From the NCBI GenBank assembly GCA_001303785.1, contig LJUJ01000013.1:1-54635 (forward strand): DNA of 54,635 nucleotides, read 5' to 3'. The first letter of the stretch is position 1. Every line of letters begins with the position of its first letter. The translations under genes were made by a program, and so were the position numbers. Below, piece by piece: positions 13,678 to 36,393 of the stretch. The notes under the pieces were generated by a model that was given only the letters and a program-made list of their open reading frames with translations, was not told the origin of the DNA and searched no databases. The DNA comes from Caldifarciminota bacterium SM23_42 (GTDB lineage: Bacteria; Hydrothermota; Tepidihabitantia; SM23-42).

Positions 13678-16600
13678 CTATTTCAACCAGATGATTTTTT
13701 GTGACTGCTCAAACCCGGCTGTCTGGAGTCGGCAGAAATAGACCCCGGCGCCTAGTTTTCTGCCTTGATTGTCTCGGCCGTCCCAAATAACCGATTTCAG
13801 TCCGGGAGTCTGTGTTTCGTTTATTAGTGTTCTCACCTGTTGGCCCAGAATGTTGTACATTTGTAGTGTTACACCACTTGTTGCACTTAGTTGATATCTG
13901 ATTATCACTCTGGATTTAGCCGGATTCGAAAAACTCTGGAATAACACGTATGGAAAATCATTTTTCATACTGTAATCCACTACGGCGCCCGGGTTGTATA
14001 TCATCTCTTCATATGAGACTGTTGCGTCATATGTTTCGACATCAGTTCTTATTTGAATCCAGTAGTAGTCGTTAGGTGTCGGGAAGGTGATTGCGGGGTT
14101 GAACGCTTGCCAATTTTCCCATTCAATCACTCCGATATCATCGAACCAAACATGGGCTTCACCGCTTTGTGGCCCTTCGCTCCTCAGCCAGATGTCAAAG
14201 TAGTTTGTGCCATTGGCAGGCGTGAAATTATCATGGTACGACGTCCAATCGGTGGTATCATCTACTTCGCCGATAGTTCGTGAGCCAAGACTATATGAGC
14301 CATATCTTGACTCATAAAACCTGACGACCGCCCGGGCATTATTGGCGTTCTGGGTCTTGATGTACCCATAGAGCGTGTAATGTGTCGTGTCTGAATAGCA
14401 TGTTATTCTTTTCTCGAACCCTGTAGTTATTGTCGAACTTCCTTCAAGCCGCCTTTGGCAAAGTGACCTCGCACCGCGGAAGGCCACGGTACTATCATAG
14501 AACTCATCATCGTGGTCAAGTTCCCAGAGAGTGCACCCTTCATCTTCAAAATTACCAAACCATATCGTTTCTCTACCCAGTCGAAATTGCCAATTTCCTG
14601 ATGGAATAATCGAAAGCATCGACCATACGTCCCCGTCCCTTGTCAGACGCTGTGGGTTAGATATCCAATAATTATCCTCGTAGTGCAATTGCACTTCATC
14701 CGCCTGTGTTATTGTCATGGATGTCATGTTGAGCGTGTCCAGAATAAGCTGAGCAGTGATACTATCGCGGTCGACGACGAGATAGGTGTTGAGATCTTTT
14801 GTGCGGCGTGCAAGATAATCAAGGATGTACAATCCAAGCTCACCCTTTGCTCTCATCGGGATGTAATCGTCTATGTATACCGGCACAATACAATATTCGT
14901 AGAAACCTGTCTCATTGATCTTGGTATTGAGAATCATTGATGGAAACGTTTCCGTATAATTAAGATCGAAGGTGAAATCACCCAGCGAATGAGCGATAAG
15001 CTTTCCATTATACACTTCGAGACCTTGTAGAACGTGAACATGATGGCAAACAACCAAATCTGCGCCCTCGTCTATTGCGTGACGCCGGTCTTCAATGTCG
15101 CCTCTCGTGGGCACGAAGAGAAATGGCGAATACATTTCATCCTCATTGTAATCAGCAGGATTTCTGTCCGGCAGCGCTGGCGTTGGCGAATACTCGTTTC
15201 CTGAATGCATTTCAACGATTATCAGATCAGCGTCGTTTTCAACTGTGTGTATCTGCCGAGAGATGTCAAATTGAGTAAGGTTGGCAAATCCTGATTTGTT
15301 GAAGCCGGCATTCAGGTATGGTTGGTAATTGTCATACTGTCCCGTTCTGTCGCTAGATGCCAAATAAGCAATATTGACGCCTTTCTTGTTGTAGAAGAGG
15401 GGAAGGTATGCCTCGTACGCATTTGCACCAGCACCCGAATATCTAATGTTGTTCGAGTCGAGGACAGATTGCGTTTCCTGTAAGCCTTCCAGACCATAGT
15501 CGATGATATGGTTGTTGGCGATCGTCACGACATCGATACCTGCGTAGGCCAAGCCATCGACGTTCTCAGGTGAACCCCTGAAGATGATGGGCTTGGTGGG
15601 ATGCGGTGTACCAGTATCGGTCAATGGGCACTCGAGGTTAGCTACGGTGATCTCCGCGGCGTCCCCTAAGTAGGGAATGGTCGGCTCAAAAATTGCTTCA
15701 ACACCTAGGGTAGGAATTATCCCACCTGGTTGCTCGTACCGTCTTGCGAGCATGACATCGCCCACAAAATTCATGGTCAGAGGAAATGTCGTGGGACCAG
15801 GGTCTACGAATACCGAACAGGACGCACGCCCCCACAGATAGGTGCTGTCGACCACTTCCAAGAGCACGGTGTATTCATGATCATCTTCAACGATGTAGGT
15901 ATGAAACGGATTCGGTTCGCTGCTTGTAGAATCATCACCAAAATACCAGAAATATTCATGATACCAACTGTCGGTATCTACGACGGTACTGTAGAATTGA
16001 ACATCAACGAGTCTTGTGCCCTTAGTGTCTTCGTAGATTTGTCCAGACGTGAACCATATCGTGACTTGCGGAACCATAGGAAGGTCATTTGTGATATCGA
16101 GTACTTCATCGAAATAGACGACACCATTGGGATCGTAGTCGCGGTCATTAATGAAAACGATGCCGTTGACCGTGGGTAAGTAGCCATAATAGGCAAGCCA
16201 GTCTTGACCAACCGGTAGTTGGTAGAGATTCCAGTTTTGATTCGGAAATGCGCCCTGGTATACCGTAACCCAGTCTTCGATATTTAATTGCTGGGTGCCG
16301 GCAAAGGAATATAGTAGGGTGTGCGCAGTGTCCCTCAAAGCAAAGCCGTGGATCTCACCGATGGTGTCGACATATGCTGCTACCTGCCATACGTCACCCG
16401 TATCCAGAGTGACCGGGATAATACTTTCCAGTTTCCAAGTATTCCCCCATAATTTGAGTGAATACGGAGAGTTGTTGTAGGTGATGAGAGAATCTAAAGA
16501 CCAGGCACTTGAGTCATAGTCCTCTCCCGGGTAGGAAAACAATTCAATCATTCCATCATCGAAATTCTCGATGGTGTCGGCGCGAATTGGGTACGATTTC

Positions 16601-16701
16601 GTTTTTTGTGTTGGCTGTCGGATACTATGACTCGAATCTATCGCATAGCTCGCAACCGATATCGTTAGTATTAACGCAATTGCCGATTTACGGTTTTTCA
16701 T
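13678..16701 (-). CDS. Exported CapA-like metallophosphatase-fold protein with PKD and C-terminal sorting domain
   Basis: A 1007-residue exported protein. Order: signal peptide (1-21), beta-sandwich region, PKD-like domain (about 210-300, YFGDDSTSSEPNPFHTY), CapA/PGA_cap domain (about 308-580), a carbohydrate-binding-like beta region (about 700-860), and the sorting domain (about 930-1007, from FSNPAKSRVIIRYQL to the final GVYFCRLQ and WLK). CapA signature residues are present: NFVGDVML, ANLECP, TIANNHIIDYG, VEMHSGNEY, CHHVHVLQG and SLGDF. CapA proteins belong to polyglutamate capsule systems, but this one is secreted and carries extra domains, so an extracellular phosphatase-fold enzyme is as likely. 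Single gene with its own promoter. Confidence 0.85.
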   Translation of the reverse strand: MKNRKSAIALILTISVASYAIDSSHSIRQPTQKTKSYPIRADTIENFDDGMIELFSYPGEDYDSSAWSLDSLITYNNSPYSLKLWGNTWKLESIIPVTLDTGDVWQVAAYVDTIGEIHGFALRDTAHTLLYSFAGTQQLNIEDWVTVYQGAFPNQNWNLYQLPVGQDWLAYYGYLPTVNGIVFINDRDYDPNGVVYFDEVLDITNDLPMVPQVTIWFTSGQIYEDTKGTRLVDVQFYSTVVDTDSWYHEYFWYFGDDSTSSEPNPFHTYIVEDDHEYTVLLEVVDSTYLWGRASCSVFVDPGPTTFPLTMNFVGDVMLARRYEQPGGIIPTLGVEAIFEPTIPYLGDAAEITVANLECPLTDTGTPHPTKPIIFRGSPENVDGLAYAGIDVVTIANNHIIDYGLEGLQETQSVLDSNNIRYSGAGANAYEAYLPLFYNKKGVNIAYLASSDRTGQYDNYQPYLNAGFNKSGFANLTQFDISRQIHTVENDADLIIVEMHSGNEYSPTPALPDRNPADYNEDEMYSPFLFVPTRGDIEDRRHAIDEGADLVVCHHVHVLQGLEVYNGKLIAHSLGDFTFDLNYTETFPSMILNTKINETGFYEYCIVPVYIDDYIPMRAKGELGLYILDYLARRTKDLNTYLVVDRDSITAQLILDTLNMTSMTITQADEVQLHYEDNYWISNPQRLTRDGDVWSMLSIIPSGNWQFRLGRETIWFGNFEDEGCTLWELDHDDEFYDSTVAFRGARSLCQRRLEGSSTITTGFEKRITCYSDTTHYTLYGYIKTQNANNARAVVRFYESRYGSYSLGSRTIGEVDDTTDWTSYHDNFTPANGTNYFDIWLRSEGPQSGEAHVWFDDIGVIEWENWQAFNPAITFPTPNDYYWIQIRTDVETYDATVSYEEMIYNPGAVVDYSMKNDFPYVLFQSFSNPAKSRVIIRYQLSATSGVTLQMYNILGQQVRTLINETQTPGLKSVIWDGRDNQGRKLGAGVYFCRLQTAGFEQSQKIIWLK

Positions 16702-18445: not shown

Positions 18446-19027
18446 ATGAAGGAAGTGTTTGAACTGAAGAGTCTGGAGCAAGTGAAAGTCATGGCTCATC
18501 CCTTAAGGGTGCAGCTACTAGAAGCCTTCGCATGTAATCCGAGAACCGCTAAACAGGTGGCTGACTCGCTTGGGCAGCAGCCGACAAAACTCTATCATCA
18601 CGTGGAGATTTTGGAACGTGCGGGTTTAATAAAGCTCGTCAAGACACGGAAGAAACGCGGCACTCTGGAGAAATACTACCGCACAGTGGCGAATCAATTC
18701 TCCGTGGATAGCAAGTTGTTCCGGATGCAAGCACAGGGTAAGGAAGTGCTCGGCGAATTCCAGGCAATGTTTGCATCAATGCTTGAGAATACTCTGTCTG
18801 AGGTTAACGAAAGCATCGCTGCGAAACTGATAAAACCGGGGAAAGAGGAAAGGCAAGCTACCGCGGCTCGTACCCACATCCGTACAACTCCGGAACAAAT
18901 AAAGAAATTGGAGAGGAAAATTCGGATGTTACTGAAAGAATTTGACAGCGCCGAGTGGAAAAAAGACGGCCTCGAATATGGATTGACCTTGGTTTTCTAT
19001 CCAGTGTTCAAGAAGAAAGGAAGGTAA
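18446..19027 (+). CDS. ArsR-family winged-helix transcriptional regulator
   Basis: A 193-residue regulator with ribosome site AAGGAG. The winged helix is at about residues 10-75: VKVMAHPLRVQLLEAFACN, then TAKQVADSLGQQPTKLYHHVEILERAGLI, which contains the recognition helix, and a basic wing (KTRKKRGTLEKYYRT). The C-terminal half is helical, probably for dimerization, and lacks the CxC metal site of metal-sensing ArsR proteins. It has a consensus promoter with a tandem palindrome at the start site, which suggests autorepression. It leads a unit with the 19031 short frame and the retropepsin-like gene. The signal sensed is unknown. Confidence 0.9.
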   Translation: MKEVFELKSLEQVKVMAHPLRVQLLEAFACNPRTAKQVADSLGQQPTKLYHHVEILERAGLIKLVKTRKKRGTLEKYYRTVANQFSVDSKLFRMQAQGKEVLGEFQAMFASMLENTLSEVNESIAAKLIKPGKEERQATAARTHIRTTPEQIKKLERKIRMLLKEFDSAEWKKDGLEYGLTLVFYPVFKKKGR

Positions 19028-19030
19028 ACA

Positions 19031-19138
19031 ATGTTGTTCTGTTATTTATACCCTAACTACTATGAATTTTTCGATCCGTACAACGTATTACCAATAGAAA
19101 GAATTGTGGTAAGTATTGGTGATAGGAGGAAGTTATGA
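19031..19138 (+). CDS. Short frame coupling the regulator to the protease gene
   Basis: A 35-codon frame with ATG at 19031 and ribosome site GGAAGG 7 bases upstream. Its TGA overlaps the ATG of the next gene (ATGA at 19135-19138). The peptide is tyrosine-rich (starts MLFCYLYPNYYEFFDPYN). It could be a real small protein, or just a translated linker that couples expression of the downstream gene. I recognise no family. Confidence 0.35.
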   Translation: MLFCYLYPNYYEFFDPYNVLPIERIVVSIGDRRKL

Positions 19139-21000
19139 TTTCAAGGCGATTGATCCTCACATATTTGTTGAGTCTCACAGTATTGAGTGGCACATTTTTT
19201 GGCGAGAAGTCTTTAACTGATCCCCATGCAATCCTCGAAAAGCATTTTGAGGCGATTGGCGGATTGGAAAATTTGAAGGCAATGAAGACGATGTACCAGG
19301 AAGGTGCAATCGTAATTGAGGGTGCCGGGCTTGAGGGAACATTCAAGCAATGGAGCGAACGCCCGCTCAGGTTGAGGCAGGAAACAGACCTCAAAATAGT
19401 GAGTGAAGTATCAGGTGACAACGGGGAAGTAAGCTGGGTGGTTGACGCAAATGGGAAGGTGTTGATTAAACGGGATGAAAATACGTTAAAAGAACGCGAG
19501 GTGAGAAAACTGATGGAGGAATACGAATATATGAATTCGGAATCAGAATTTTTCACACTGACATTCGAGGGTGTTGAAAAGGTGAATGGCAAAGATTGCT
19601 ACGTTGTGAAGATCGCGAACACAATCAACCAAGATGTTCAGATTAATTTCTATAACAAATCAAATTTCTATCTGTTGAGAACGATGATCATCAAACCTGA
19701 TAACGAGGATCATATTACTTACTCAGATTTCCGCACGGTGGACGGAATGACTTTCCCGTTTCGTGAAAAGGTTAAAACCCTGCCAACTGGTGAGACAACC
19801 ACGGTGGAATATGCGAAGTATGCGTTTAACGTTGAAATCGACAATTCGCTTTTTGAACCACCGCAAGAAGATGTCGAGGATTTCGTCTTCATGAAAGGTG
19901 ATAATGCCGAAGACGTGCCGGTTGAGTTTATTGAAAGCCATATCTACCTGCCGGTCAATGTACTCGGCAAAGAAAGACTGTGGGTTCTGGACTGTGGGGC
20001 TTCGGTCAATGTTATTGATTCTAGTTTCGCTGCTGAGTTAAATCTTCAATTCGAAGGACCCATTAAGGGGCAGGGTGCTTCGGGAGTCGTCAACTTCTAT
20101 TTCGTTACTCTCCCGGCGTATACGGTAGGTAGCATTCAATTCCGGGAACAGAAGGTGCTCGCGCTTAGTTTTCGTGAAATCTTTCAGAGAGCCCTCGGTT
20201 TAGATGTTATAGGCATCTTAGGTTATGATTTTCTCTCGCGTTTTGTAACGAAAATCGATTATGCGAAGCAGACGTTGTCTTTCTATCATCCGTCGAAATT
20301 CGAATATCATGGTAATGGCAAAGTAATTGATTCACCGATTGAGGGTAGTATGTTTAGTCTGCCACTCACGGTTGACGGCGAATATTCAGGTAAATGGCGC
20401 TTGGATATAGGCGCACCGGATATTGATTTTCACTATCCATATACGAAGGCCAATGATCTGCTGAATCGGGAAGGCGTTGATGTTATTGTCGGTGATGCTG
20501 CTGGTTGGACTAAATCTAGGATATCACGATTTAGGACGATCGAGATTGACGGTTTCATTTTGGAAAATCCGCTGATTGGTATGCCATCTCAGGAAGGAAC
20601 TGGCAGTTTTGCGGAAGAGTCCATGATAGGAAACGTAGGTAATTCTTTTCTGCGTAACTTTGTGCTGTACATGGATTACAGCGATCAGAAGGTGATACTA
20701 GAAAAGGGAGATGATTTTGGCAAAGAATTTCAGCGGGGGAAAAGCGGGCTTCAGTATCTGTATAACGCGGACAATGACGTCGAAGTGCAATTTGTCTCAC
20801 CCAACACTCCGGCAGACGATGCGGGTTTTAAAGAAAGAGATATCATTACATCCATAAATGGAATTGAAGTCCAATACCTTGACGGCGTTATTGCCTTAAG
20901 AAAACTAATGAGGGCAGAAGCCGGTACGACTTATACAATCGGAATACTGCGGGAAGGCAAAACTTTCGACAAACAACTGACATTGAGGGATTTGTTCTGA
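19135..21000 (+). CDS. Exported tandem retropepsin-like protein with PDZ domain
   Basis: A 621-residue exported protein with ribosome site AGGAGG. Order: signal peptide (1-23), LolA/outer-membrane lipoprotein carrier-like beta domain (about 28-245), two retropepsin-like domains, PDZ domain (about 535-621, SPNTPADDAGFKERDIITSINGIEV). The first retropepsin motif is LDCGAS near D286, with partner ILGYDFLSRF; the second is LDIGAP near D424, with partner GNVGNSFLRNF. Canonical enzymes have D-T/S-G; here Thr/Ser is replaced by Cys and Ile, so activity is doubtful, although both aspartates remain. Tandem lobes could pair inside one chain as in pepsins. The nearby gene at 24199 is a related protein. 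Confidence 0.82.
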   Translation: MISRRLILTYLLSLTVLSGTFFGEKSLTDPHAILEKHFEAIGGLENLKAMKTMYQEGAIVIEGAGLEGTFKQWSERPLRLRQETDLKIVSEVSGDNGEVSWVVDANGKVLIKRDENTLKEREVRKLMEEYEYMNSESEFFTLTFEGVEKVNGKDCYVVKIANTINQDVQINFYNKSNFYLLRTMIIKPDNEDHITYSDFRTVDGMTFPFREKVKTLPTGETTTVEYAKYAFNVEIDNSLFEPPQEDVEDFVFMKGDNAEDVPVEFIESHIYLPVNVLGKERLWVLDCGASVNVIDSSFAAELNLQFEGPIKGQGASGVVNFYFVTLPAYTVGSIQFREQKVLALSFREIFQRALGLDVIGILGYDFLSRFVTKIDYAKQTLSFYHPSKFEYHGNGKVIDSPIEGSMFSLPLTVDGEYSGKWRLDIGAPDIDFHYPYTKANDLLNREGVDVIVGDAAGWTKSRISRFRTIEIDGFILENPLIGMPSQEGTGSFAEESMIGNVGNSFLRNFVLYMDYSDQKVILEKGDDFGKEFQRGKSGLQYLYNADNDVEVQFVSPNTPADDAGFKERDIITSINGIEVQYLDGVIALRKLMRAEAGTTYTIGILREGKTFDKQLTLRDLF

Positions 21001-21044
21001 GAGCGCGTGCGTGCCTGGTGCAACGTGTCCCTTATCAAAAAATG

Positions 21045-21066
21045 GGGGGAGTACTTGTGCTCCCCC
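21045..21066. terminator. Hairpin terminator after the retropepsin-like gene
   Basis: Stem GGGGGAG (21045-21051) with CTCCCCC (21060-21066) and an 8-base loop. It is preceded by AAAAAAT, so the minus strand reads into ATTTTTTGATAA; it is therefore strong in the minus direction and moderate in the plus direction. Confidence 0.75.
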
Positions 21067-21215
21067 TTCTGCATCAGGATAACGGTTAACGCTGACTGGG
21101 TTATGTAGTTCTCGATTCCCCCGCACCTTTACTGCGTAGCTATCTGTGAATACCCGAATAACTTGCCGATTGCACGCACACATTATCCCGTCGAAATCCT
21201 TGTGCCCGAAAAGGT

Positions 21216-21264
21216 GCGGTCTCGCTCGAACAGTACGACATGCGTAGGTTTAGAGCGAGACCGC
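21216..21264. repeat. 12-bp inverted repeat with a 25-base loop
   Basis: GCGGTCTCGCTC (21216-21227) and GAGCGAGACCGC (21253-21264) are perfect complements. Further units follow up to 21355 (TAGGGC ... GCCCTA). The whole 21067-21358 stretch looks like a dispersed-repeat patch without a gene. Confidence 0.6.
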
Positions 21265-21358
21265 CGTGGAATGGAGTGGAGGAGTCGAGAAGCAATGTAG
21301 GGCAAATCTTTAGGTTTGCAGATTCTTTTTTGCAGGGCGTAAAACCATGCCCTACTGA

Positions 21359-24019
21359 CTATCGTACGAGCAGTATTTTCTCTGTAATGCTATGGTCGTT
21401 GGTCGTCAGTCTAACGAAATAAACGCCACTGCCTAATTGACGATTAGCGTCGTCTGTACCGTCCCAACCAATCGTCGATGCACGATCCGTGATGCATGAT
21501 TCATGATTAAGAGATTTGACTAGCCGTCCTGCTGCATCGAAGATCTTCAATTCCGGGTTTTCTATCATGTATCGTGAATCGTGAATCATGAATCTGATAT
21601 TGGTGATGTGTGTGAATGGATTCGGTGAAGCGGTCAGATTATATCCTGCATTCTGTGCCTGCTGTCCTGTATGTTCTTCGATTCCTGTGAACGGATAGAA
21701 CGTACCCCAAACGCGCATGGCGTTGGCAGCGCGGGTGTTTATATATTGAGCCCATCCGGAATAGGTGACAAGAATGTCTGATCCGGCACCTTTGGTTGTG
21801 GCTGGATATAGCTGAAATCCTGGTTGCGTGGATACGGCGAAGCTATCGATCACCGTGCTGCTTGCATCGACCAGTGCGCCATAGAGATCAGTGACTGGAC
21901 CGTTACGATTGTCTTCCCACACTATCACGAAGTTGGTGCCGGCATACGAAACTGACGGTTTTGTCTGGTCACCGTTGGCGATCGAGATCTCGAAACCATC
22001 AGGGTCAAGCACGACGCCATTCTGAGTTACGCGTGCTCCGTAGATATCGTTTGAACCGTTACGTTCATCATCCCAAACGACGAGATAGTTGGTACCGTCA
22101 AAAGCAACTGAGGGATTGTCTTGGAATGACGTTGCAGTCGATACGAGAATACCGTTGGGATCGAGTACATTACCATTGGACGTTACACGTGCACCATAGA
22201 TGTCGTGCAGTCCGTTTCTATTATCCCGCCACACTACGAAATAATCTGAGCCGTCCGATGCAACTGATGCGCTATACTGAACTTCACCATTCGTGCAGAT
22301 GGCAATGCCTCCGGGATCGAGAACCATGCCATTAGTATCCAAGCGCGCACCATAGATGTCAGGGCTGGTATAACTGTCACGGTAGTCGATCCACACCACT
22401 AGATGGTTAAGATTGTTTGAGGCACAGTGCGGCGACATGGCCATACCTCCCGATGAGATATTTATGTAAGTCGGATTGAGGACAATGCCTTGCCTACTCA
22501 CGCGGGTGCCTTTGACTGCCCATGAACCACCTATATTGTGCGTCCAGACCACACAGTAGTTGTTGCCGTCGAAAGCGATCACCGGGGAATATTGACCAAA
22601 TGTAGCATTGCAGATGACAAAACTGGGAGAATCGAGAATGTTGCCGGCCGCATCGACCCGTGCCCCGTATATATCAGAAGAATATAGACCTGCACGTAAA
22701 TCACCCCAAGCAATTAAGAAATTTGCTCCATCGCAAGCAGCCGCAGGCTCATTTTGGAAAACTGCCGATAGAGAGATGTCGATACCAGCGGGATCAATAA
22801 CCGTACCGGCCGTGCTCACGCGCGAGCCGTAGATATCACCCGTGGGGTAGTCTCGGTCGTCGTGCCATGCCACCAGGTAGTCTGTGCTGCCAAATGCGAC
22901 TGCTGGCAGTCGTTTCTGTCCCTGGGTTACAGAAATGGGAATGCCTAGAGCATCGAGCACAATGCCCCCCTGATCGACACGCGCGCCGTAGATGTCTGGA
23001 TAAGTGCCATTTCTGTCGTCTTCCCATACAACAAGATAATTCGTACCATCAAAAGCAATCGCAGGACTGCATTCGGGGGACATAGGGTCCGCAGATATAG
23101 CAATGCCATTTGGTTCAAGGACAACTCCTGCAGTATCCATACGCGTACCGTAGATGTCACGCGCCGGTGAACGCCGATCTTCCCATACGATCAGAAAATC
23201 AGTACCGTCAAAATCTACCGAAGGAAGCAATTGATCCAAGGTATAATCGGATATTGCGATACCGTCGGTATCAATGACTATGCCGTTCACGCTTACCCTT
23301 GCACCATAGATATCACATCGACTGCTTGTAGTATCACGCGCGTCTTGCCAAACGACGAGATAATTCGTGCCATCAAAAGCAGCCGCGGGATATTTCTGAC
23401 TATGTGTAGTACTGCAAATTGGAATGCCATTCGGATCCAGTACGACGCCTGTTTGGGTCACGCGTGCACCACAGATATCTGGTGCTCCGGAACGCTCGTC
23501 TTGCCATACTACAAAATAATCCGTGCCATCAGAGATGATCGCAGGATGTCTTTGATGGGCACTTGCAGTTGAGATGGCGATACCGCTTGAGTCTAAGACG
23601 ACACCTGAAGTATTTAGCCGGGCACCGTAAATGTCAATGTCTGAGGAATTCCGACGATCCTGCCAGACCACCAGATATTCAGTACCATTAAAGGCTACTG
23701 CTGGAATGGCGTCGCAATAGTCTTGTAAATAATCATACGTTGCGGTCCCGATATGGATCCCTGCAGAATCAAGAAATATGCCCTGAGAATTGACGCGTGC
23801 ACAGTATATGTCAATCTGAGGATAGCAGCGCGTGTCTTCCCATACCACGAGGTGATTAGTCCCATCAAAGGCTACGCCAGGCCAAGTTTGGCTGCCTCGG
23901 CCCTGGGTATATATGACATTTGTGTCGACGAGAAAAGCATTCTCTCTCTCTGCGTGGACGAACGTCGTAATAAGCAAGATCATCATTACATAAAATAATA
24001 CATATTTGGTTCTGATCAT
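21359..24019 (-). CDS. Exported 13-repeat beta-propeller-like protein with C-terminal sorting domain
   Basis: An 886-residue exported protein with ribosome site AAAGGAG and signal peptide (1-23). The body is 13 repeats of about 58-62 residues with the pattern YLVVWxDxRN-xx-DIYGARV-xxxGxVLDPxGIxIS-xxxxQxxPAVAFDGTN. The ninth repeat is the most diverged (YCVVWTHNIGGSW). Repeats of this form are found in secreted proteins of WOR-3-like genomes and probably fold as propeller blades. It ends in a sorting domain beginning at SPNPFTHI and finishing GVYFVRLT ... LLVR. Both loops of that domain are built from 7-bp DNA repeats (see repeat entries). Function is unknown; surface binding or display is inferred. 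Confidence 0.8.
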   Translation of the reverse strand: MIRTKYVLFYVMMILLITTFVHAERENAFLVDTNVIYTQGRGSQTWPGVAFDGTNHLVVWEDTRCYPQIDIYCARVNSQGIFLDSAGIHIGTATYDYLQDYCDAIPAVAFNGTEYLVVWQDRRNSSDIDIYGARLNTSGVVLDSSGIAISTASAHQRHPAIISDGTDYFVVWQDERSGAPDICGARVTQTGVVLDPNGIPICSTTHSQKYPAAAFDGTNYLVVWQDARDTTSSRCDIYGARVSVNGIVIDTDGIAISDYTLDQLLPSVDFDGTDFLIVWEDRRSPARDIYGTRMDTAGVVLEPNGIAISADPMSPECSPAIAFDGTNYLVVWEDDRNGTYPDIYGARVDQGGIVLDALGIPISVTQGQKRLPAVAFGSTDYLVAWHDDRDYPTGDIYGSRVSTAGTVIDPAGIDISLSAVFQNEPAAACDGANFLIAWGDLRAGLYSSDIYGARVDAAGNILDSPSFVICNATFGQYSPVIAFDGNNYCVVWTHNIGGSWAVKGTRVSRQGIVLNPTYINISSGGMAMSPHCASNNLNHLVVWIDYRDSYTSPDIYGARLDTNGMVLDPGGIAICTNGEVQYSASVASDGSDYFVVWRDNRNGLHDIYGARVTSNGNVLDPNGILVSTATSFQDNPSVAFDGTNYLVVWDDERNGSNDIYGARVTQNGVVLDPDGFEISIANGDQTKPSVSYAGTNFVIVWEDNRNGPVTDLYGALVDASSTVIDSFAVSTQPGFQLYPATTKGAGSDILVTYSGWAQYINTRAANAMRVWGTFYPFTGIEEHTGQQAQNAGYNLTASPNPFTHITNIRFMIHDSRYMIENPELKIFDAAGRLVKSLNHESCITDRASTIGWDGTDDANRQLGSGVYFVRLTTNDHSITEKILLVR
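21476..21510 (-). repeat. Five tandem heptamers in loop 2 of the sorting domain
   Basis: Plus-strand units CGATGCA, CGATCCG, TGATGCA, TGATTCA, TGATTAA: 35 bp, unit length 7. They encode the stretch LNHESCITDRAS within the sorting domain. Unit TGATTCA is the reverse complement of the loop-1 unit TGAATCA. Confidence 0.75.
21564..21591 (-). repeat. Four tandem heptamers in loop 1 of the sorting domain
   Basis: Plus-strand units ATCATGT, ATCGTGA, ATCGTGA, ATCATGA: exactly 28 bp. They encode FMIHDSRYMIE, which replaces the short strand connection seen in unexpanded sorting domains. Confidence 0.8.
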
Positions 24020-24164
24020 GTTTGACTCCTTTTTCTACATTTTCATTCTAAGCAGTAATCCCACAATATGCTCACAGTCTGTCTCAACCCATGAAACAGG
24101 ATTCTAGATAAATTATACATGGCTTTGGTCGGAAGGCAAGCCTTCACGTCATGTTTGAAGAGGC

Positions 24165-24193
24165 TTGAGTCTTTAGCCTGTGGGGTATATAAT
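24165..24193 (+). promoter_or_regulatory. Promoter of the frameshifted retropepsin-like lipoprotein
   Basis: TTGAGT (24165-24170), 17-bp spacer, TATAAT (24188-24193), then 5 bases to the ATG at 24199 without a ribosome site, so the mRNA would be leaderless. Confidence 0.55.
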
Positions 24194-24198
24194 CATCC

Positions 24199-25190
24199 AT
24201 GTTAGGGCAAGAGTCAGCGATAATATTGATTCTCTGTGTGAGCTTACTTGTTTGCTCATGCACTTGCAGGCGCGATCGCCAGCCGAGAAATACCACTGGT
24301 CAACACGTTGCATTGAAGAATTCAGTGTCTGGCCAGAGCCTTTCAATACCATTTAAACTCTCAAGAAACAAGGTCATGTTGCCGGTTAGAATTGACGATT
24401 CGCGCGAGCTCAAAGTCATTTTGGATACGGGTATGCCTTCGAAGGACTTTTAGTGTACAACGTAGATTTGAGGGATAGCCTGAATCTCCCTAATGTCGTT
24501 GACGTGGAAGTGCCTGGTGCCGGAGAAGGTCCGGCTGCGACAGCAATCATGGCCGAATCAGTATCATTTTTCATTGGTGACGTAGAGTTCACAGATCAAA
24601 GAATCATCGTTCTTCAGGATAACATAATGAGAGGGTTTCCAAGTGACGGCGTTACCGGATATTCATTGTTCGGTAACTATGCAGTCGAGATCGACTACGA
24701 CCATATGATTATAAGACTTCACGAAAATTCGGATCAATTAGTTGATTCCTCTTGGGCGTGGATTCCGCTGACATTCAGGAACAACAAGCAAATCCCTTGG
24801 ATTGAGGCGGTGATAAGTATCAAGGGTGAAGCAAGAACAGCCGTTTCGCTCTATATCGACTTGGCATCAAGCGATGCGTTGGAGTTGCTGATAAGGGAGC
24901 GCATGAAGTTTGCACTGCCCGAGAGGCTTGAGGATTGTTATCTCGGTACAGGCCTCAGTGGCGATATCTATGGTAAGAAAGGAAGAATCGCTTCGTTGAT
25001 ACTGGGATCTGTTGATCTGGAAGATGTGGTTACGGCGTTTGCACCAGCCCACGCTAGATCCAAACAAGAGGGTGCGGATGGAATTATCGGCAGTGATGCA
25101 CTCAGACGATTTAACGTCATTTTTGACTACAAGAAATTACGGCTCTATATGAAGCCAAATTCTTATTTTAGTGAGCCTTTCCAGGAATAG
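24199..25190 (+). pseudogene. Retropepsin-like lipoprotein broken by a frameshift at the active site
   Basis: The frame from 24199 encodes a lipoprotein-type signal (ILILCVSLLVCSC) and runs to LDTGMPSKDF, where it stops at 24453. The second frame (24453-25190) continues the same protein. Reading back by one base after ATG CCT gives DTGMPFEGLLVYNVDLRDSLNL across the joint, so one base is missing near 24434-24440. Here the catalytic DTG is canonical, unlike the gene at 19135. The second half contains the flap and partner region (GVTGYSLFGNYAVEIDYD) and a second lobe-like unit ending GIIGSDALRRFNVIFDYKK. Either a recent loss of function, a sequencing error or, less likely, recoding; no classical slippery heptamer is present. 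Confidence 0.78.
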
Positions 25191-25251
25191 TTGTTATTAT
25201 GTGGACGTGGCGCAAAATTTGTCTGGGCGGGTCTTTGTGTTAAGTGTACCA

Positions 25252-25279
25252 TTGACATCCTTCCGATAACTCCTATAAT
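25252..25279 (+). promoter_or_regulatory. Consensus promoter of the Tat-exported aminotransferase gene
   Basis: TTGACA (25252-25257), 16-bp spacer, TATAAT (25274-25279). The leader is only about 10 bases, including the ribosome site AGGAGA. Confidence 0.88.
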
Positions 25280-25295
25280 TAATCAGGAGAATTAG

Positions 25296-26714
25296 ATGAC
25301 TAAAAATCGTGTAACACGTAGGGAGTTTATGCAAGCCTCGATTGCTGGCTTGAGCTTCATGTATTTACCTGGGATTGGCCGGCTGAATGCTCGGCCATTT
25401 GGGTTTACGCATTACGGCGAGACTTATGGGCGCTTGTGCTATAATGAAAATCCATTAGGACCGTCACCTCTTGCAATAGAGGCAATGCAGGAGGCCACAC
25501 AAAGAGCCCATCGCTATCCCGATTGGTTTAACGGCTCTCTGGAAAATCGGATCGCGTCACTTCACGACATGAACGCGAATAATATCTGTGCGGGAACCGG
25601 TGCAACCGAGATAATTCGTTTGATCGCGGATGCTTTCTTATCGGCAGGTGATGAGATGATTACTGCAAATCCAACCTATGCTCAGATGGCTTCCGAGGCC
25701 ACGGCTAATGGTGCAACAGTAGTCCATGTACCCGTTGGAGCGGACTATGTGATTGATTTGGATGCAATTGTAAAGGCGATCAATGGCAGAACCAGGCTCA
25801 TATCTTTGGTTAACCCCAACAACCCCCAGGCAACCGTCATCCGGAAGCAGGCCATGGAGCGTTTTATGTACTCACTACCCAGTCAAATTGTCGTTGTGGT
25901 AGATGAAGCATACCACAATTACGTGCAGACTTCTGACTATGAGAGTTGCATAAGGTATATCGATGAGGGCCTGCCAGTGATTGTGGTTCGCACTTTTTCA
26001 AAAATCTATGGCTTGGCCGGAGCTCGCATCGGCTATTCGGTGGCATCTGGTCAGTTTACCGCTCAGATAGGCTCATCCCAAAACTTTGGCATGGTGAGCA
26101 ACGTCAGTCAAGCTGCTGCACAGGCCGCGCTTGATGACGAGCAACATGTCATCAACACGGTTACGTTGAATAATCAGGCAAAAGAAATTCTCATCGCTGG
26201 GTTTGAATCGTTGGAATTGGAATATATTCCTTCTGAAACCAATTTCATGATGTTTAATACTGGCACAAGCGGCAGCATGGTCGCTTCCCGGCTCGCCGCC
26301 AAGGGATATCAGGTTCGTGTCGGCTGGGGAATGCCTCAGCATATTCGAGTGTCTACCGGTACGATTGAGGAGATGGAAGGATTTATCGAGGCTCTTGGTG
26401 AAATACTGAGACAGGGTTATGATGGCGAGACTCCACCGACATTTGGATTGAATCACATATATCCTAACCCGTTTAGTGCGCAATGTACGATAAGAATCTC
26501 GACCATGGGGAATGAAAAGGTTTCGCTGACAATATATGATACAGTTGGTAGAAAAGTACAGACACTTGCAAATGATGTGCTAGAGCCCGGTGTTCATCAT
26601 ATCAATTGGGATGGGAAAGATGTGCATGGTAGAAGGGTCGCCTCTGGAGTGTATATCATAAACCTTATGCAAGGTGAATTCGCGACAAGTGGTCGAATCA
26701 CCCTGGTTAGATAA
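25296..26714 (+). CDS. Tat-exported histidinol-phosphate-aminotransferase-like protein with C-terminal sorting domain
   Basis: A 472-residue fold-type I PLP protein. The N-terminus is a twin-arginine signal (VTRREFMQASIAGLSFMYL). The enzyme domain (about 45-375) follows the HisC subfamily: NENPLGPSP, GTGATEII, NPTYAQM, NPNNPQ, DEAYHNY, and the PLP lysine K236 in TFSKIYGLAGARIGY. The end (about 385-472) is a sorting domain (IYPNPFSAQCTIRISTM ... GVYIINLMQ ... LVR). Tat export carries folded, cofactor-loaded proteins, so delivery of a PLP enzyme to the outside is consistent. A cytoplasmic histidine-biosynthesis role is therefore unlikely; an extracytoplasmic amino-acid or cell-wall amine substrate is inferred. 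Single gene with its own promoter. Confidence 0.88.
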   Translation: MTKNRVTRREFMQASIAGLSFMYLPGIGRLNARPFGFTHYGETYGRLCYNENPLGPSPLAIEAMQEATQRAHRYPDWFNGSLENRIASLHDMNANNICAGTGATEIIRLIADAFLSAGDEMITANPTYAQMASEATANGATVVHVPVGADYVIDLDAIVKAINGRTRLISLVNPNNPQATVIRKQAMERFMYSLPSQIVVVVDEAYHNYVQTSDYESCIRYIDEGLPVIVVRTFSKIYGLAGARIGYSVASGQFTAQIGSSQNFGMVSNVSQAAAQAALDDEQHVINTVTLNNQAKEILIAGFESLELEYIPSETNFMMFNTGTSGSMVASRLAAKGYQVRVGWGMPQHIRVSTGTIEEMEGFIEALGEILRQGYDGETPPTFGLNHIYPNPFSAQCTIRISTMGNEKVSLTIYDTVGRKVQTLANDVLEPGVHHINWDGKDVHGRRVASGVYIINLMQGEFATSGRITLVR

Positions 26715-26737
26715 TTACCCTGCTTAGAATAATACCA

Positions 26738-26765
26738 TTGACAAACTCGTCTTTTTACATATACT
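26738..26765 (+). promoter_or_regulatory. Promoter of the NicO-type transporter gene
   Basis: TTGACA (26738-26743), 16-bp spacer, TATACT (26760-26765); the gene starts at 26818 with ribosome site GAAAGGAG. Confidence 0.82.
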
Positions 26766-26817
26766 TATTTCGTAACACTTCTGTCAAAATAGTAACACAT
26801 GTTGAAAGGAGAATACT

Positions 26818-27528
26818 ATGTCCGGTGAGTTAGCTGTCTTGGTCGGTACCGCAGCCACTCTTGGCTTCGTGCATACAATATTTGGTCCAGACCACTACGT
26901 ACCATTTATTGTTCTCTCAAAAGCACGAGGCTGGAGTGTTTTGAAAACTTCGATCATTACTGTGTTATGCGGTGTCGGACACGTGCTCAGTTCGATCATT
27001 CTTGGATTTGTAGGTATCGCCTTGGGTATCGCGGTGTTTAAATTGGAAGGAATCGAAGCCGTGCGCGGTGATATAGCGACATGGTTCGTCATGATATTCG
27101 GCTTCACGTACTTTGTGTGGGGGGTGCATAGGGCACTTCGCAAGAAGCCCCATCGACATAAGCATCTTCATATTGACGGCACGACGCATTCGCATGCTCA
27201 CGAGCATAGTGCTGAGCATACCCATGTGCATAGTGCAGTGTCTGCGAGCATTACGCCTTGGATTCTCTTCATCATTTTTGTGTTTGGTCCCTGTGAGCCG
27301 TTGATTCCGCTGATCATGTATCCTGCAGCTAGAGGTAGTATCATAGATGTTTGGATCGTTGCCCTGGTATTTGGTGGAATTACAATCTCTACCATGCTTG
27401 GCGTTGTATTAGTTTCGTACTTCGGGTTGTCTGCAGTGCCACTGCGTAGATTTGAGAGATACTCACACGGCATCGCCGGCCTCGCCATATTTCTGTGTGG
27501 TGCTGCCATGAAATTCCTCGGTTTATAG
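26818..27528 (+). CDS. NicO/UreH-type nickel-cobalt transporter
   Basis: A 236-residue protein with about six membrane helices. The first helix carries the family motif GFVHTIFGPDHYVPF (histidine and HxxxxGPDH pattern), and a histidine-rich loop lies in the middle (RHKHLHIDGTTHSHAHEHSAEHTHVH, about residues 115-140), followed by PWILFIIFVFGPCEPLIPL. These are features of the NicO/RcnA/UreH permeases that move Ni2+ or Co2+. The direction (uptake or efflux) cannot be read from sequence. There is no urease, hydrogenase or metal regulator beside it in this window. Confidence 0.86.
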   Translation: MSGELAVLVGTAATLGFVHTIFGPDHYVPFIVLSKARGWSVLKTSIITVLCGVGHVLSSIILGFVGIALGIAVFKLEGIEAVRGDIATWFVMIFGFTYFVWGVHRALRKKPHRHKHLHIDGTTHSHAHEHSAEHTHVHSAVSASITPWILFIIFVFGPCEPLIPLIMYPAARGSIIDVWIVALVFGGITISTMLGVVLVSYFGLSAVPLRRFERYSHGIAGLAIFLCGAAMKFLGL

Positions 27529-27675
27529 AAACTGAAGTAAGTCACAACAGCAAGCCCATAGCCGATTTAAAGACAGCCCCAGTAGAGGGCGGATTCTCTA
27601 CTAAACCCTACATATTGATATTTGTCCAAATATTGGAGAGAAGAGGGATGTATTCGGGAAATCTGAATTTGCCCG

Positions 27676-27703
27676 TTGACAATTCTCAATTTTACGATAT
27701 AAT
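27676..27703 (+). promoter_or_regulatory. Consensus promoter of the YCF48-like gene
   Basis: TTGACA (27676-27681), 16-bp spacer, TATAAT (27698-27703). The leader to the start at 27817 is about 105 bases. The longer frame covering this region is not protein-like. Confidence 0.87.
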
Positions 27704-27732
27704 TGAGTATACGCTCAGTGAGTATTTGCTCA
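27704..27732 (+). promoter_or_regulatory. Tandem TGAG-N6-CTCA operator at the transcription start
   Basis: TGAGTATACGCTCA (27704-27717) and TGAGTATTTGCTCA (27719-27732): two copies of an inverted repeat with 15-bp period, immediately after the -10 element. The position fits a repressor site; the binding protein is unknown. Confidence 0.6.
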
Positions 27733-27816
27733 ACCAGTGGTTTGAAGGTGTGATGAAAAAACGAGTCTATGCTTATCTGAGGTTCGATGTGTCTAATATA
27801 CTAACGGAGGTGCGCT

Positions 27817-29088
27817 ATGAAGGACGAGAGAAATAGGTATCTGGACTTATTACTGGCAATAGTACTACCTTTGCTTACATTTGCTCAGGGCTGGTATACA
27901 CAGACATCCGGTACAAACAAGTCGCTTTTTGATGTCCATTTTGTAGACACCCAAAATGGATGGATTGCGAGCATGACCAACTCGATATTTTATACGAGTG
28001 ACGGCGGACAGACTTGGGTTGATCTTGAACCACAGCCGTCGGTGAACTATTGGGGCATTTATTTCGTCACCATACTGGAGGGGTATGCGGTGGGCAGTCC
28101 TGGTAAAATAAGACACACCACTGATGCAGGCATCACTTGGGAAGACCAGACTGGCGGGGACTACAATAACTGGGGTGTTTATTTCTTGGATGAAAATAGC
28201 GGCTGGATTGCAGGTGGCAGAGAAGAGGGATTCCCGGGACAGGACCCGATACGATATATCTATCATACGAGTAACGGAGGCGATAACTGGACTGCGCAGC
28301 TCTATGACTTCGACGAACTACAACTATGGGCTGTTCATTTCTTCGATGCCGACATTGGCTATGCAGTTGGTGATGGTGGAACGATTTTTCATACTACAAA
28401 TGGTGGAGGAGCATGGTTGGAACAGACATCTGGGACAATACGTCATTTGAGGAGCGTGCACGCCACGAGTCCGGATACGGCATGGGCCGTAGGTGTTGGC
28501 GGATTAGTACTACGCACGATCGATGGCGGTTCAACTTGGGATTCTTTGTATGTGGGTGTTTCATACGGCCTCAGTGACATCTACTTCGTGAACTACCAAA
28601 CCGGTTGGATTGCTGGTGGTGATACTATAAATGGGATTATACTTAGTACTACCAACGCTGGTGATAGTTGGGTGCTGCAGAATAGCGGCACGAGTAACTT
28701 CCTCTACGCAATCTATTTCACGGATCCAGACACTGGTTGGGCAGTCGGTTACGATGGTACCATTGTACATACCACAAGCGGGGGAACTGGTATTGAGGAG
28801 TTATCCGATTTTACGAAGCCGCAGTCAGAGGTCGTTCTGACTCAGAACAATCCGAATCCATTTAGCCGTTCAACCGTGATTAGCTTCACTATGCCCAAGA
28901 CGAGTCGCGTGGAACTCAAGGTCTATGACTTAATAGGTCAAGAAGTAGCTATTCTCGTCGATGAGGAGCTGTATGCAGGTGAACATGCTGTCATATTTGA
29001 CGGGAAAAATCTGCCCAACGGTGTATATTTCTATCGACTGACTAGTGGCGATATCACCAAGACAAAACTGTGTGTTTTGTTGAGATAG
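27817..29088 (+). CDS. Exported YCF48/BNR-repeat protein with C-terminal sorting domain
   Basis: A 423-residue exported protein with ribosome site GGAGGTG and signal peptide (to about residue 23). Its repeats follow the YCF48/BNR pattern (VHFVDTQNGWIA ... SIFYTSDGGQTWVD; IYFVTILEGYAVG; VYFLDENSGWIAGG; VHFFDADIGYAVG; IYFTDPDTGWAVG), about seven blades of a propeller. It ends in a sorting domain from NNPNPFSRSTVISFTMP to GVYFYRLT and LLR. This domain has no heptamer insertion and gives the short loop for comparison. YCF48 itself is a photosystem II assembly factor; here only the fold is shared, and the protein is likely surface displayed. Confidence 0.86.
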   Translation: MKDERNRYLDLLLAIVLPLLTFAQGWYTQTSGTNKSLFDVHFVDTQNGWIASMTNSIFYTSDGGQTWVDLEPQPSVNYWGIYFVTILEGYAVGSPGKIRHTTDAGITWEDQTGGDYNNWGVYFLDENSGWIAGGREEGFPGQDPIRYIYHTSNGGDNWTAQLYDFDELQLWAVHFFDADIGYAVGDGGTIFHTTNGGGAWLEQTSGTIRHLRSVHATSPDTAWAVGVGGLVLRTIDGGSTWDSLYVGVSYGLSDIYFVNYQTGWIAGGDTINGIILSTTNAGDSWVLQNSGTSNFLYAIYFTDPDTGWAVGYDGTIVHTTSGGTGIEELSDFTKPQSEVVLTQNNPNPFSRSTVISFTMPKTSRVELKVYDLIGQEVAILVDEELYAGEHAVIFDGKNLPNGVYFYRLTSGDITKTKLCVLLR

Positions 29089-29204: not shown

Positions 29205-29576
29205 TTAACCCGTCGCTTCAGCCTCCATCAGCGATTTTGCACTGCCAGCAACGCAGTAGTAACCCCACTTCAAACCCATCTTCGCGGTCACGGGACACTC
29301 AGGACAGATACAGCCTTTTTTCTCTTTGATGCATTGACTCTTGCCAACGAGACAGAAGCCACCTTTTTCATCACACTCGACCCAACTTGGACACTTGCCG
29401 CAGATGCAGTTTGCAAAGACATATTCTTTTTTCTGTTCTTCAGTCATCTCGGGTGTTTCAGGCTTGGCTGCTTCTTCCTTTGGGGTCTCTTTTTTGCCGC
29501 ATCCGAAGGCCATCAATCCGGCAAAGAAAGCCACGACACCAGTACCTAGTGATTTCAGAAAGCTTCTTCGTGTCAT
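29205..29576 (-). CDS. Tat-exported DUF2769 cysteine-rich lipoprotein
   Basis: A 123-residue protein that starts with a twin-arginine motif (MTRRSFLKSLGTG) and has a lipobox-like LMAFGC, so it appears to be a Tat-exported lipoprotein. After a charged linker comes a DUF2769-type domain: CICGKCPSW, GGFCLVGKSQC, KKGCICPECPVT, and WGYYCVAGSA. The eight or so cysteines suggest Fe-S or zinc binding, and a Tat route fits a prefolded cofactor protein. Good ribosome site (GAGGAGG) and its own promoter at 29600. It lies downstream of, and on the same strand as, the rhodanese gene, but a terminator separates them. Confidence 0.82.
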   Translation of the reverse strand: MTRRSFLKSLGTGVVAFFAGLMAFGCGKKETPKEEAAKPETPEMTEEQKKEYVFANCICGKCPSWVECDEKGGFCLVGKSQCIKEKKGCICPECPVTAKMGLKWGYYCVAGSAKSLMEAEATG

Positions 29577-33205: not shown

Positions 33206-34033
33206 ATGGCACGCGTCAAACAAAACAAGGGAATGATATTCGACATCATTAGGTACGCGATACATGACGGTCCTGGTATTCGTACAACTGTTTTCTTGAA
33301 GGGTTGTCCACTTTCATGTTGGTGGTGTCAAAATCCTGAGAGCCAGAAGTTAGAGCCAGAGAAGGTGGGCGCTATTGACCGTCGTAAGTATTCCAATTTG
33401 TTCTATGTCGAGGATGGAAACATAATCGGCCGTGAGGTAACGGTTGCACAGGTAATGGCCGAGGTTGATAAGGACAGAATTTTCTACAAGTACTCGGGTG
33501 GTGGTGTGACATTTTCTGGAGGTGAACCGCTGATGCAACCAGATTTTCTTTTGGAACTGCTGAAGGTAAGCAAGAAAAAAGGACTCCACACTGCACTCGA
33601 CACTTCAGGATACGCTTCTTGGGCAATCGTGAGACGTATATTGAAAGACGTTGACCTGTTTCTCTATGACCTCAAACTGATGGATGAGCGAGTGCATCAG
33701 AAATACACCGGGGAAGGCAACGAACTGATACTGGACAACCTTAGAAAACTTGCACGCAACAAGGCACATATCATCGTCCGTATTCCGGTAATTACCGGAA
33801 TAACGGATAAACGTGAGAACATCCGTGAGATTGGTGAGTTTGTTCGCAGCGTCAAGGGTATTGAACAAATGCATCTGTTGCCATATAATTACTTGTGCAA
33901 GGATAAATATCAGAGAATGAAGAGAGAATATGCGATGCAACACATCAAGCCGACTTCGGACCAGTCACTACGCAAGATCAAAGAACATCTTGAAACCTAT
34001 GGCTTGCGTGTGAAAATCGAGGGTGGAATGTGA
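33206..34033 (+). CDS. hypE: Glycyl-radical-enzyme activase for HypD (radical SAM)
   Basis: A 275-residue radical SAM activase. The cluster-binding CxxxCxxC is C34/C38/C41 in GCPLSCWWCQNPESQ, and the SAM-binding glycine motif is GGGVTFSGGEPLMQ. The family opening IFDIIRYAIHDGPGIRTTVF is intact. Many activases carry an insertion with one or two extra 4Fe-4S clusters between these motifs; here that segment is short and has no cysteine, so only the radical SAM cluster remains. The gene overlaps hypD by 4 bases. It is expected to install the glycyl radical on HypD under anoxic conditions. A later ATG (33233) is possible as the start. Confidence 0.85.
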   Translation: MARVKQNKGMIFDIIRYAIHDGPGIRTTVFLKGCPLSCWWCQNPESQKLEPEKVGAIDRRKYSNLFYVEDGNIIGREVTVAQVMAEVDKDRIFYKYSGGGVTFSGGEPLMQPDFLLELLKVSKKKGLHTALDTSGYASWAIVRRILKDVDLFLYDLKLMDERVHQKYTGEGNELILDNLRKLARNKAHIIVRIPVITGITDKRENIREIGEFVRSVKGIEQMHLLPYNYLCKDKYQRMKREYAMQHIKPTSDQSLRKIKEHLETYGLRVKIEGGM

Positions 34034-36393
34034 ATATAAGAATCAGAAAACTTAGAGAGAAGAGCCTGAGTACGAAACCATATGTTTCACCGGAACGTGC
34101 CAGTCTAATAACTGAGTTTTACAGGAGCGACATAGCCAATCGTGTTTCAGTACCAGTGGCTCGCGCCCTTGCATTCGCGCACATTCTCAAGCATAAGAAG
34201 ATCTTTATCGACGATGGAGAACTTATTGTCGGCGAGCGCGGGCCTGGGCCACGGGCAACGCCTACGTATCCGGAGATTTGCATTCATAGCCTCAAAGACC
34301 TCGACGTATTGGATTCACGAAAAAAAGTAGCATTCTCCGTGAATAAGCGCACCCGAGATGTATACAAAAAGAATATCATTCCCTTTTGGCGAGGCCGTTC
34401 AATACGCGAGCGCATATTCCAGGTAGTCGACCCGGCGTGGCGATTAGCCTATGAAGCAGGTGTGTTCACCGAATTCATGGAGCAGCGCGCACCCGGTCAT
34501 ACTGTGCTTGATGATAAGATATACAAATGCGGGTTTCTTGATTTTAAAGCGAAAATTCAAGATCAGTTGCAGAGACTGGACTTCTACAATGACCCGGATG
34601 CCTTTGATAAACGTGAAGAGCTTTCTGCTATGTCGGTTGCTGCCGATGCCCTTATAGTCTTTGCACAGCGATATGCATCAGAGGTGAAACAACGACTCAG
34701 GAAGACCAAATCGCCAACGCGGAGAAAAGAGCTAAGGCAGATAGCAGAGATATGTGAACGGGTACCTGCTCATGCGCCCCGAACGTTCTGGGAAGCATTG
34801 CAATATTATTGGTTCGTGCACCTGGGCGTAGTGACCGAGTTCAATACCTGGGACTCTTTCAATCCCGGCAGACTTGACCAACACCTCTATCCATTCTACA
34901 GGCGTGACTTAGCAGAGGGCATTTTGACCGAAGAGAGGGCGCGCGAGTTGCTTCAGGCATTCTGGATAAAATTCAACAATCAACCAGCTCCGCCCAAAGT
35001 TGGCGTGACCGCCCAAGAGAGTAACACCTACACGGATTTCTGCTTGATAAATCTTGGCGGCTTGAAGCCAGACGGTTCGAATGCCGTGAATGAATTATCA
35101 TATTTAGTCCTCGATGTTATTGAAGAGATACGCATTTTGCAGCCAAGTGCTATGGTTCAAATAAGCCACAAGAACCCGGACGAATTCTTAAAGCGGGCAC
35201 TCAACATAGTCAAAACCGGTTTTGGCCAGCCATCTATATTCAATACTGATGAAATCGTCCAGGAGATGCTTAGGCAGGGCAAGTCCATTATCGATGCACG
35301 TAACGGGGGAGCGAGTGGTTGTGTTGAAACCGGTGCATTTGGCAAGGAAAGTTACATTCTTACTGGTTATTTCAATCTCGTCAAAATCCTCGAAGTTACA
35401 CTTAGCAATGGCAAAGACCCTTTGACAAACAAGATTGTTGGACTGCGAACTGGCAACCCCATACGCTTCAAAACATTCAATGAGCTATTTTCTGCATACA
35501 AGAAACAACTTAACCACTTCGTAGACATGAAGATCAGGGGTAACGTCATCATTGAACGGATATATGCGAAGTATATGCCGGCAGTTTTCTTGTCTGTACT
35601 CATCGACGACTGTATCGCTAGGGGTAGGGATTATCACAATGGCGGTGCTCGCTATAACACTTCATACATCCAGGGTGTAGGTACCGGCAGTATTACTGAT
35701 TCGTTGACGGCCATCAAGTATCATGTGTTCGACAGAAAAGATATCGGTATGCTTCGGTTGTTGAAAGCGCTACGTAACGACTTCAGAGGTTTCAAAACAT
35801 TACGCAACAAACTTTGGGATTCTACGCCGAAGTACGGAAATGATGATGATTATGCCGATGACATCATGAAACAGGTTTTTGAGGTTTTCTTCGAGGCAGT
35901 CGATGGCAGACCCAATACCAAGGGTGGACATTTCCGCATTAATCTTCTGCCAACAACCGTGCATGTATATTTTGGTAGCAAGGTTGGTGCTACGCCAGAC
36001 GGCAGGCGTGCGCGCACCCCGCTATCCGAAGGTATTTCACCGGTGCAGGGAACGGATAAGAACGGACCGACAGCAGTAGTAAAATCTGCCGCAAAGATGG
36101 ACCACATTCGTACTGGAGGAACGCTGCTGAATCAAAAATTCACGCCCCAGTTGCTCACCGATGAGGAAGGGATTGACAAACTAGCTGCGTTGATACGTGC
36201 CTATTTTAGCATGAACGGGCACCATATTCAGTTCAATGTCGTGACTGCAGAGACTTTGAGGAAAGCACAGAAAGACCCTGAGAAGTACCGAGACCTGATT
36301 GTACGGGTCGCGGGATACAGTGATTATTTTATTGATCTGGGAAAAGACTTGCAGGATGAAATAATACGACGCACCGAGCAGGGGAGATGCTGA
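34030..36393 (+). CDS. hypD: Trans-4-hydroxy-L-proline dehydratase (glycyl radical enzyme)
   Basis: A 787-residue glycyl radical enzyme, the usual length for HypD (about 789). The active site is C431 and E433 in SGCVETGAFGKE, and the radical glycine is G762 in RVAGYSDYF. HypD-type stretches are kept: APTYPEIC, FTEFMEQRAPGHTV, FNNQPAPPKVGVT, GGARYNT, IQGVGTGSITDSLTAIKY and KYGNDDDYADDIM. HypD removes water from 4-hydroxyproline to give pyrroline-5-carboxylate, letting anaerobes use collagen-type proline. The assignment rests on the overall pattern as I know it from clostridial HypD. The usual proC reductase is not beside it. It starts at GTG overlapping hypE. Confidence 0.86.
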   Translation: MNIRIRKLREKSLSTKPYVSPERASLITEFYRSDIANRVSVPVARALAFAHILKHKKIFIDDGELIVGERGPGPRATPTYPEICIHSLKDLDVLDSRKKVAFSVNKRTRDVYKKNIIPFWRGRSIRERIFQVVDPAWRLAYEAGVFTEFMEQRAPGHTVLDDKIYKCGFLDFKAKIQDQLQRLDFYNDPDAFDKREELSAMSVAADALIVFAQRYASEVKQRLRKTKSPTRRKELRQIAEICERVPAHAPRTFWEALQYYWFVHLGVVTEFNTWDSFNPGRLDQHLYPFYRRDLAEGILTEERARELLQAFWIKFNNQPAPPKVGVTAQESNTYTDFCLINLGGLKPDGSNAVNELSYLVLDVIEEIRILQPSAMVQISHKNPDEFLKRALNIVKTGFGQPSIFNTDEIVQEMLRQGKSIIDARNGGASGCVETGAFGKESYILTGYFNLVKILEVTLSNGKDPLTNKIVGLRTGNPIRFKTFNELFSAYKKQLNHFVDMKIRGNVIIERIYAKYMPAVFLSVLIDDCIARGRDYHNGGARYNTSYIQGVGTGSITDSLTAIKYHVFDRKDIGMLRLLKALRNDFRGFKTLRNKLWDSTPKYGNDDDYADDIMKQVFEVFFEAVDGRPNTKGGHFRINLLPTTVHVYFGSKVGATPDGRRARTPLSEGISPVQGTDKNGPTAVVKSAAKMDHIRTGGTLLNQKFTPQLLTDEEGIDKLAALIRAYFSMNGHHIQFNVVTAETLRKAQKDPEKYRDLIVRVAGYSDYFIDLGKDLQDEIIRRTEQGRC

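Follow-up and report, generated by a model that had tools for sequence, protein, structure and literature searches.

A HisC-like PLP enzyme carrying a Tat-type signal and a type IX sorting domain in Caldifarciminota bacterium SM23_42 and its relatives

Exported PLP enzymes and T9SS cargo

In Pseudomonas the PLP-loaded enzymes PtaA and PvdN are exported through Tat and are active in the periplasm (PMC6206403), and cargo of the type IX secretion system (T9SS) is described in reviews as Sec-dependent (PMC9251779, PMC5445135). Neither a Tat-fed T9SS cargo nor an extracellular T9SS aminotransferase was found in the open-access literature searched. Here we describe a gene combining the marks of both routes. 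It lies in a window of 54,635 nt (the whole stretch of DNA analysed, contig LJUJ01000013.1), in a genome of 2.53 Mb that is 97% complete. The reading frame starts with ATG, 5' of which stands an AGGAG-like sequence, and has the following features:

25296..26714, + strand: whole gene, 472 aa, with Tat signal, HisC-like PLP domain and T9SS C-terminal sorting domain (CTD); from ORF, Pfam/NCBIfam profiles and alignment
25296..25391, + strand: Tat signal region, residues 1-32, with the motif TRREFMQAS, a core of low hydrophobicity and a basic c-region residue (R29); from alignment and hydropathy
25362..25373, + strand: Y23-L-P-G closing the signal core, aligned with the N-terminal arm Y-x-P-G of HisC; from two alignments
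25434..26396, + strand: PLP-dependent fold-type I (HisC-like) catalytic domain, residues 47-367; PF00155 Aminotran_1_2, E 2.4e-48
26001..26003, + strand: codon of the PLP Schiff-base lysine K236 (RTFSK), invariant in the family
26457..26711, + strand: T9SS type-A CTD, residues 388-472; from PF18962, TIGR04183 and the model
26484..26486, + strand: codon of C397, conserved CTD cysteine (13/13); from the family alignment

PtaA of Pseudomonas fluorescens (NF051461) is likewise a HisC-like PLP transaminase exported by Tat, and its profile, aligned to the window protein, starts at residue 6 and covers the Tat signal. The two differ, however, in that the window protein scores 199.8 bits where the cut-off is 500, that the PtaA model (359 positions) has no CTD and that no pyoverdine-like pathway lies beside the genes examined here. 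PvdN shares Tat export of a folded, PLP-loaded enzyme, but its reaction is decarboxylating and it presumably belongs to a different PLP family. The nearest sequences examined are PRK09105-like (NF006580): PDB 3ly1 from Erwinia (Pectobacterium) and HisC-like plasmid proteins of Novosphingobium and Zymomonas, the plasmid proteins having Tat-type N-termini as in our family. All of these fall outside the clade of our family and lack a CTD; like the window protein (216.7 bits against 444) they score below the NF006580 cut-off. Membership of PtaA or PRK09105 was ruled out by these sub-threshold scores.

The idea in a preliminary description of this DNA that an exported aminotransferase would be a new setting is not supported, as PtaA, PvdN and the Tat-type plasmid proteins precede it; the substrates suggested there, cell-wall amines or scavenged amino acids, are guesses. 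An exported aminotransferase is already known; what is new is the coupling of Tat to T9SS. For route, location, activity and reaction alike, what we infer as reasonably probable is that a folded, PLP-loaded HisC-like enzyme is exported by Tat and then by T9SS and has an amine or amino acid outside the cytoplasm as its substrate.

A three-part protein family related to HisC

Within its bacterial family, nine further genomes have orthologues with all three parts at 65-73% identity (one lacks its last six residues, lost at a contig end); such proteins also occur, outside the phylum, in L084 (58%), L128 (57%), L129 (52%) and L130 (57%). As nine orthologues and four genomes from outside the phylum keep all three parts, the architecture is not a product of chance, and we conclude that it is real. 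The named orthologue records are metagenome-assembled genomes (MAGs) of candidate division WOR-3 and Candidatus Stahlbacteria, and the genome of the window is likewise a WOR-3/Stahlbacteria MAG. Elsewhere in the phylum, in a search of 147 genomes, the catalytic part scores like HisC among the matches listed, and the inspected N-termini of those matches carry no Tat signal, having the HisC Y-x-P-G arm instead.

In a tenth family genome (G012, L086) the protein is in two pieces at an assembly gap, and L085 (G148) has the N-terminal half only, up to a run of N; L085, like L084 and L128-L130, is presumed to lie outside the phylum because it is not one of the 147 genomes that made up the phylum search. 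G012 and G148 are single-contig MAG 'chromosomes' with runs of ~100 N, the gap falling inside the aminotransferase gene near the PLP-lysine motif. Biological disruption of the gene in these two genomes was ruled out, since each break consists of a run of N within a joined assembly.

The 14 family sequences form one clade with support of 100/100. It sits on a branch of 0.89 beside the HisC rows in an unrooted tree, where a HisC-like row from Treponema, itself long-branched, joins it with support of 95/83. The clade is separate from the Tat-type Novosphingobium and Zymomonas plasmid proteins and 3ly1, several branches here being long, and the grouping of these latter rows together may be an artefact.

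The window protein shares with HisC (TIGR01141) the fold, the PLP lysine, Asp, Tyr and Arg and the NENPLG motif. The fold-type I residues K236, D203, Y206, R244 and N175/N176 are invariant in the family, bearing out the earlier view of a HisC-like enzyme with an intact PLP lysine; R341 and R351, invariant too, align with the substrate-binding arginines of HisC. It is nevertheless HisC-like rather than HisC, since it scores 247.5 bits with TIGR01141, below the equivalog cut-off of 276.55. At about 45 positions the family has a fixed residue (in 12-13 of 13 sequences) that differs from most HisC: C48 and A103 replace Ala and Ser present in 28/28 HisC, Q262 an Arg (28/28) and W344 a Tyr (22/28). 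The predicted structure (mean pLDDT 75) has TM-scores by target length of 0.88 to 3ly1, the highest among the matches listed, and 0.85 to 3ffh. Cysteines 48, 98, 218 and 397 are conserved in 13, 13, 12 and 13 of 13 sequences, C397 lying within the CTD, and disulfides among them are possible; like residues of the pocket, these cysteines set the family apart from HisC.

Could this simply be a HisC of the cytoplasm whose N-terminus has been misread and to which a domain has been fused? The similarity to HisC of 31-40% over residues 46-373 would allow it, but RR-x-F is present in 13/13 sequences, the score is below the HisC equivalog cut-off, the family forms a clade of its own in the unrooted tree, and the same genome has another HisC-like aminotransferase gene (C31:34436-35422, 35% identity), whose product is presumably the true HisC. 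We regard this explanation as extremely improbable and largely excluded; identity as a true HisC is ruled out by the score, the export signals and the separate gene.

The type of reaction is a different matter. A decarboxylase, cyclodehydratase, lyase or racemase would need no 2-oxo acid outside the cell, where the free compound may be in short supply; the CobD decarboxylase and the GntC cyclodehydratase, both among the profile matches here, share the HisC-like fold, and HisC-fixed positions are replaced in the family (A48C, S49Y, S103A, R262Q). Against this, Arg341 and Arg351, whose HisC counterparts bind substrate, are invariant, and the HisC and PtaA models outscore CobD. We hold a non-transaminase reaction to be rather unlikely, and PtaA-like transamination outside the inner membrane remains, by analogy, our leading guess.

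Export signals, machinery and neighbouring genes

The twin-arginine N-terminus of the 472-aa protein is TRREFMQASIAGLSFMYLPGIGRLNA, and residues 1-35, MTKNRVTRREFMQASIAGLSFMYLPGIGRLNARPF, agree by eye with the Tat consensus. The sequence shows these marks of a Tat substrate: an S/T-R-R-x-F-L motif, a weakly hydrophobic core and an A-x-A-like site (here L/V/I-x-A at 30-32), with a putative signal peptidase I site after A32, which is invariant in 10 family sequences. The window sequence falls below the threshold of the Pfam TAT_signal model, which matched 1/10 family members (E 0.0044); the assignment is therefore based on the motif and on how well it is kept, with R8, R9 and F11 invariant in 13/13 family sequences. 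It is on these residues that the earlier proposal of a twin-arginine signal stands, and a chance Tat-like motif is ruled out by this conservation in genomes inside and outside the phylum.

The CTD, also anticipated in the preliminary description, is above cut-off with both PF18962 (30.8 bits against 27) and TIGR04183 (36.3 against 23). As in type-A cargo, it forms a C-terminal beta-sandwich (seven strands in the predicted structure) with the usual ending; the Sec signal peptide of such cargo is, however, replaced by a Tat-type signal. The machinery genes proposed for a search are present as well: TatC (215.5 bits) and TatA (66.3 bits) for Tat, SprA (377.6 against 200) and PorU (449 against 420) for T9SS. 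A genome devoid of Tat, named beforehand as a refutation, is thus not what we see. The motor protein GldL/PorL gave 0 matches here and 0 in every control genome too, so that this search is uninformative.

Each of the 14 full-length members has a CTD, 52-72% identical to that of the window protein, a level close to that of the catalytic domain. This conservation was dismissed as a special feature because neighbouring secreted proteins have CTDs conserved to the same degree. It does bear on the alternative of a Tat-exported enzyme confined to the periplasm, in which the CTD would be a fusion by-product in a tail-rich lineage or a structural domain. That PtaA-type enzymes are periplasmic, and that Tat plus T9SS cargo was not found described in the open-access literature, would fit such an enzyme; the presence of the CTD in every full-length member, including those from four genomes outside the phylum, its near-catalytic level of identity and its score above the TIGR04183 cut-off speak against it. 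We consider confinement to the periplasm unlikely, and continue to favour export by Tat followed by T9SS.

CTDs are encoded at about 110 places in the genome. We read the N-termini of 95 other CTD frames, saw the opening in 92, and could not classify about twenty. In ~75 a start is followed by a hydrophobic core, with a median 12-residue mean hydropathy of 2.62 and a 5-95% range of 2.01-3.28 (the filter removed cores <1.6), against 1.55 for the signal core of the aminotransferase. An RR pair lies near the core in 8/75, and RRxF[LV] close after Met in two (L204, L209), both having Sec-type cores of strong hydrophobicity. The 95 frames, about twenty of them unclassifiable, gave no evident further Tat cargo, so that the aminotransferase carries, to judge by its N-terminus, the only clear Tat-type signal among the CTD proteins surveyed.

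Mean pairwise identity in 13 family sequences is 0.675 for residues 8-35, 0.665 for the catalytic domain and 0.588 for the CTD, and only 0.22-0.33 in the n-region and linkers. Sec signals of neighbouring secreted proteins from the same genomes are 17-38% identical, compared to 57-68% for their bodies. This unusual conservation of the signal could reflect either Tat constraint or a retained arm. In the latter case the N-terminal region would stay uncleaved as a Tat signal-anchor or arm, its Tyr-x-Pro-Gly being the substrate-binding arm kept from HisC: Y23, P25 and G26 fall on the HisC Y-x-P-G in two alignments, the Tyr being present in 28/28 HisC and 12/13 family sequences. In E. coli HisC this Tyr contacts the substrate of the other subunit. 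On the other hand, the conserved L/V/I-x-A at 30-32 is of the kind usually cleaved, signal c-regions also often have L-P-G as a helix breaker, the divergent member L130 is without the motif context, L128 has His in place of Tyr, and T9SS export is at odds with a retained anchor. We thus assign the uncleaved arm a low probability. Lower still, and quite speculative, is a composite in which a Tat-to-T9SS relay of the folded, cofactor-loaded enzyme is combined with a signal region doubling as active-site arm and with C397 tying the CTD to the catalytic part.

A functional gene cluster around the aminotransferase was ruled out, as the neighbours differ between genera, and no pathway-indicating neighbours were found at the loci compared. 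The window order at 18446-29088 (ArsR-like regulator, retropepsin-PDZ protein, aminotransferase, YCF48-like T9SS protein) is partly kept in L080, L082 and L083; in other genera the neighbours are others than this set. Just downstream, at 26818-27528 (+), is a DsbD_2-like membrane protein rich in histidine that may be a metal transporter; in relatives it is absent from that place or further off (L083). A 123-aa cysteine-rich DUF2769 protein at 29208-29576 (-), 2.5 kb from the aminotransferase, has a Tat-type lipoprotein signal, MTRRSFLKSLGTGVVAFFAGLMAFGC; it recurs near the aminotransferase in L080 and L081 at 79-84% identity and is likely a second Tat substrate. A PGA_cap (capsule synthesis) domain protein with a T9SS-type tail is encoded at 13678-16701 (-). 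At 33206-36393 lie a trans-4-hydroxy-L-proline dehydratase (1299.5 bits, cut-off 1100) and a radical SAM activase, pointing to use of hydroxyproline-containing peptides.

Proposed route and its meaning

In the proposed route, the enzyme would fold and take up PLP in the cytoplasm and pass the inner membrane folded, via Tat. Its C-terminal beta-sandwich would then be recognised and the SprA/PorU type IX machinery would bring it to the surface or into the medium. There its substrate would be an extracytoplasmic amine or amino acid, and the likeliest reaction is transamination with a 2-oxo acid as partner, on the model of PtaA in the Pseudomonas periplasm. The proposal is made because 14 full-length sequences of one clade have all three parts, the genes of both machineries are in the genome, the signal core has low hydropathy and a second Tat-type protein lies 2.5 kb away. 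Also in its favour are the invariant PLP residues, the ~45 positions unlike HisC, the separate HisC-like gene and the PtaA precedent. Counted against the proposal are the sub-threshold TAT_signal score, the reviews that call T9SS cargo Sec-dependent and a gene neighbourhood that indicates no pathway.

Judged from the sequences, the pairing of export signals is real, conserved and unusual, and its retention on a PLP enzyme across several lineages suggests a vitamin-B6 enzyme working outside the cell. T9SS is thought to carry folded proteins over the outer membrane, its cargo being said to enter the periplasm unfolded via Sec. If the proposed route is true, the outer-membrane step would also accept cargo that was folded and loaded with its cofactor in the cytoplasm, and this protein would be a natural test of that ability; it would also mean that PLP chemistry takes place on the cell surface of these uncultured bacteria.
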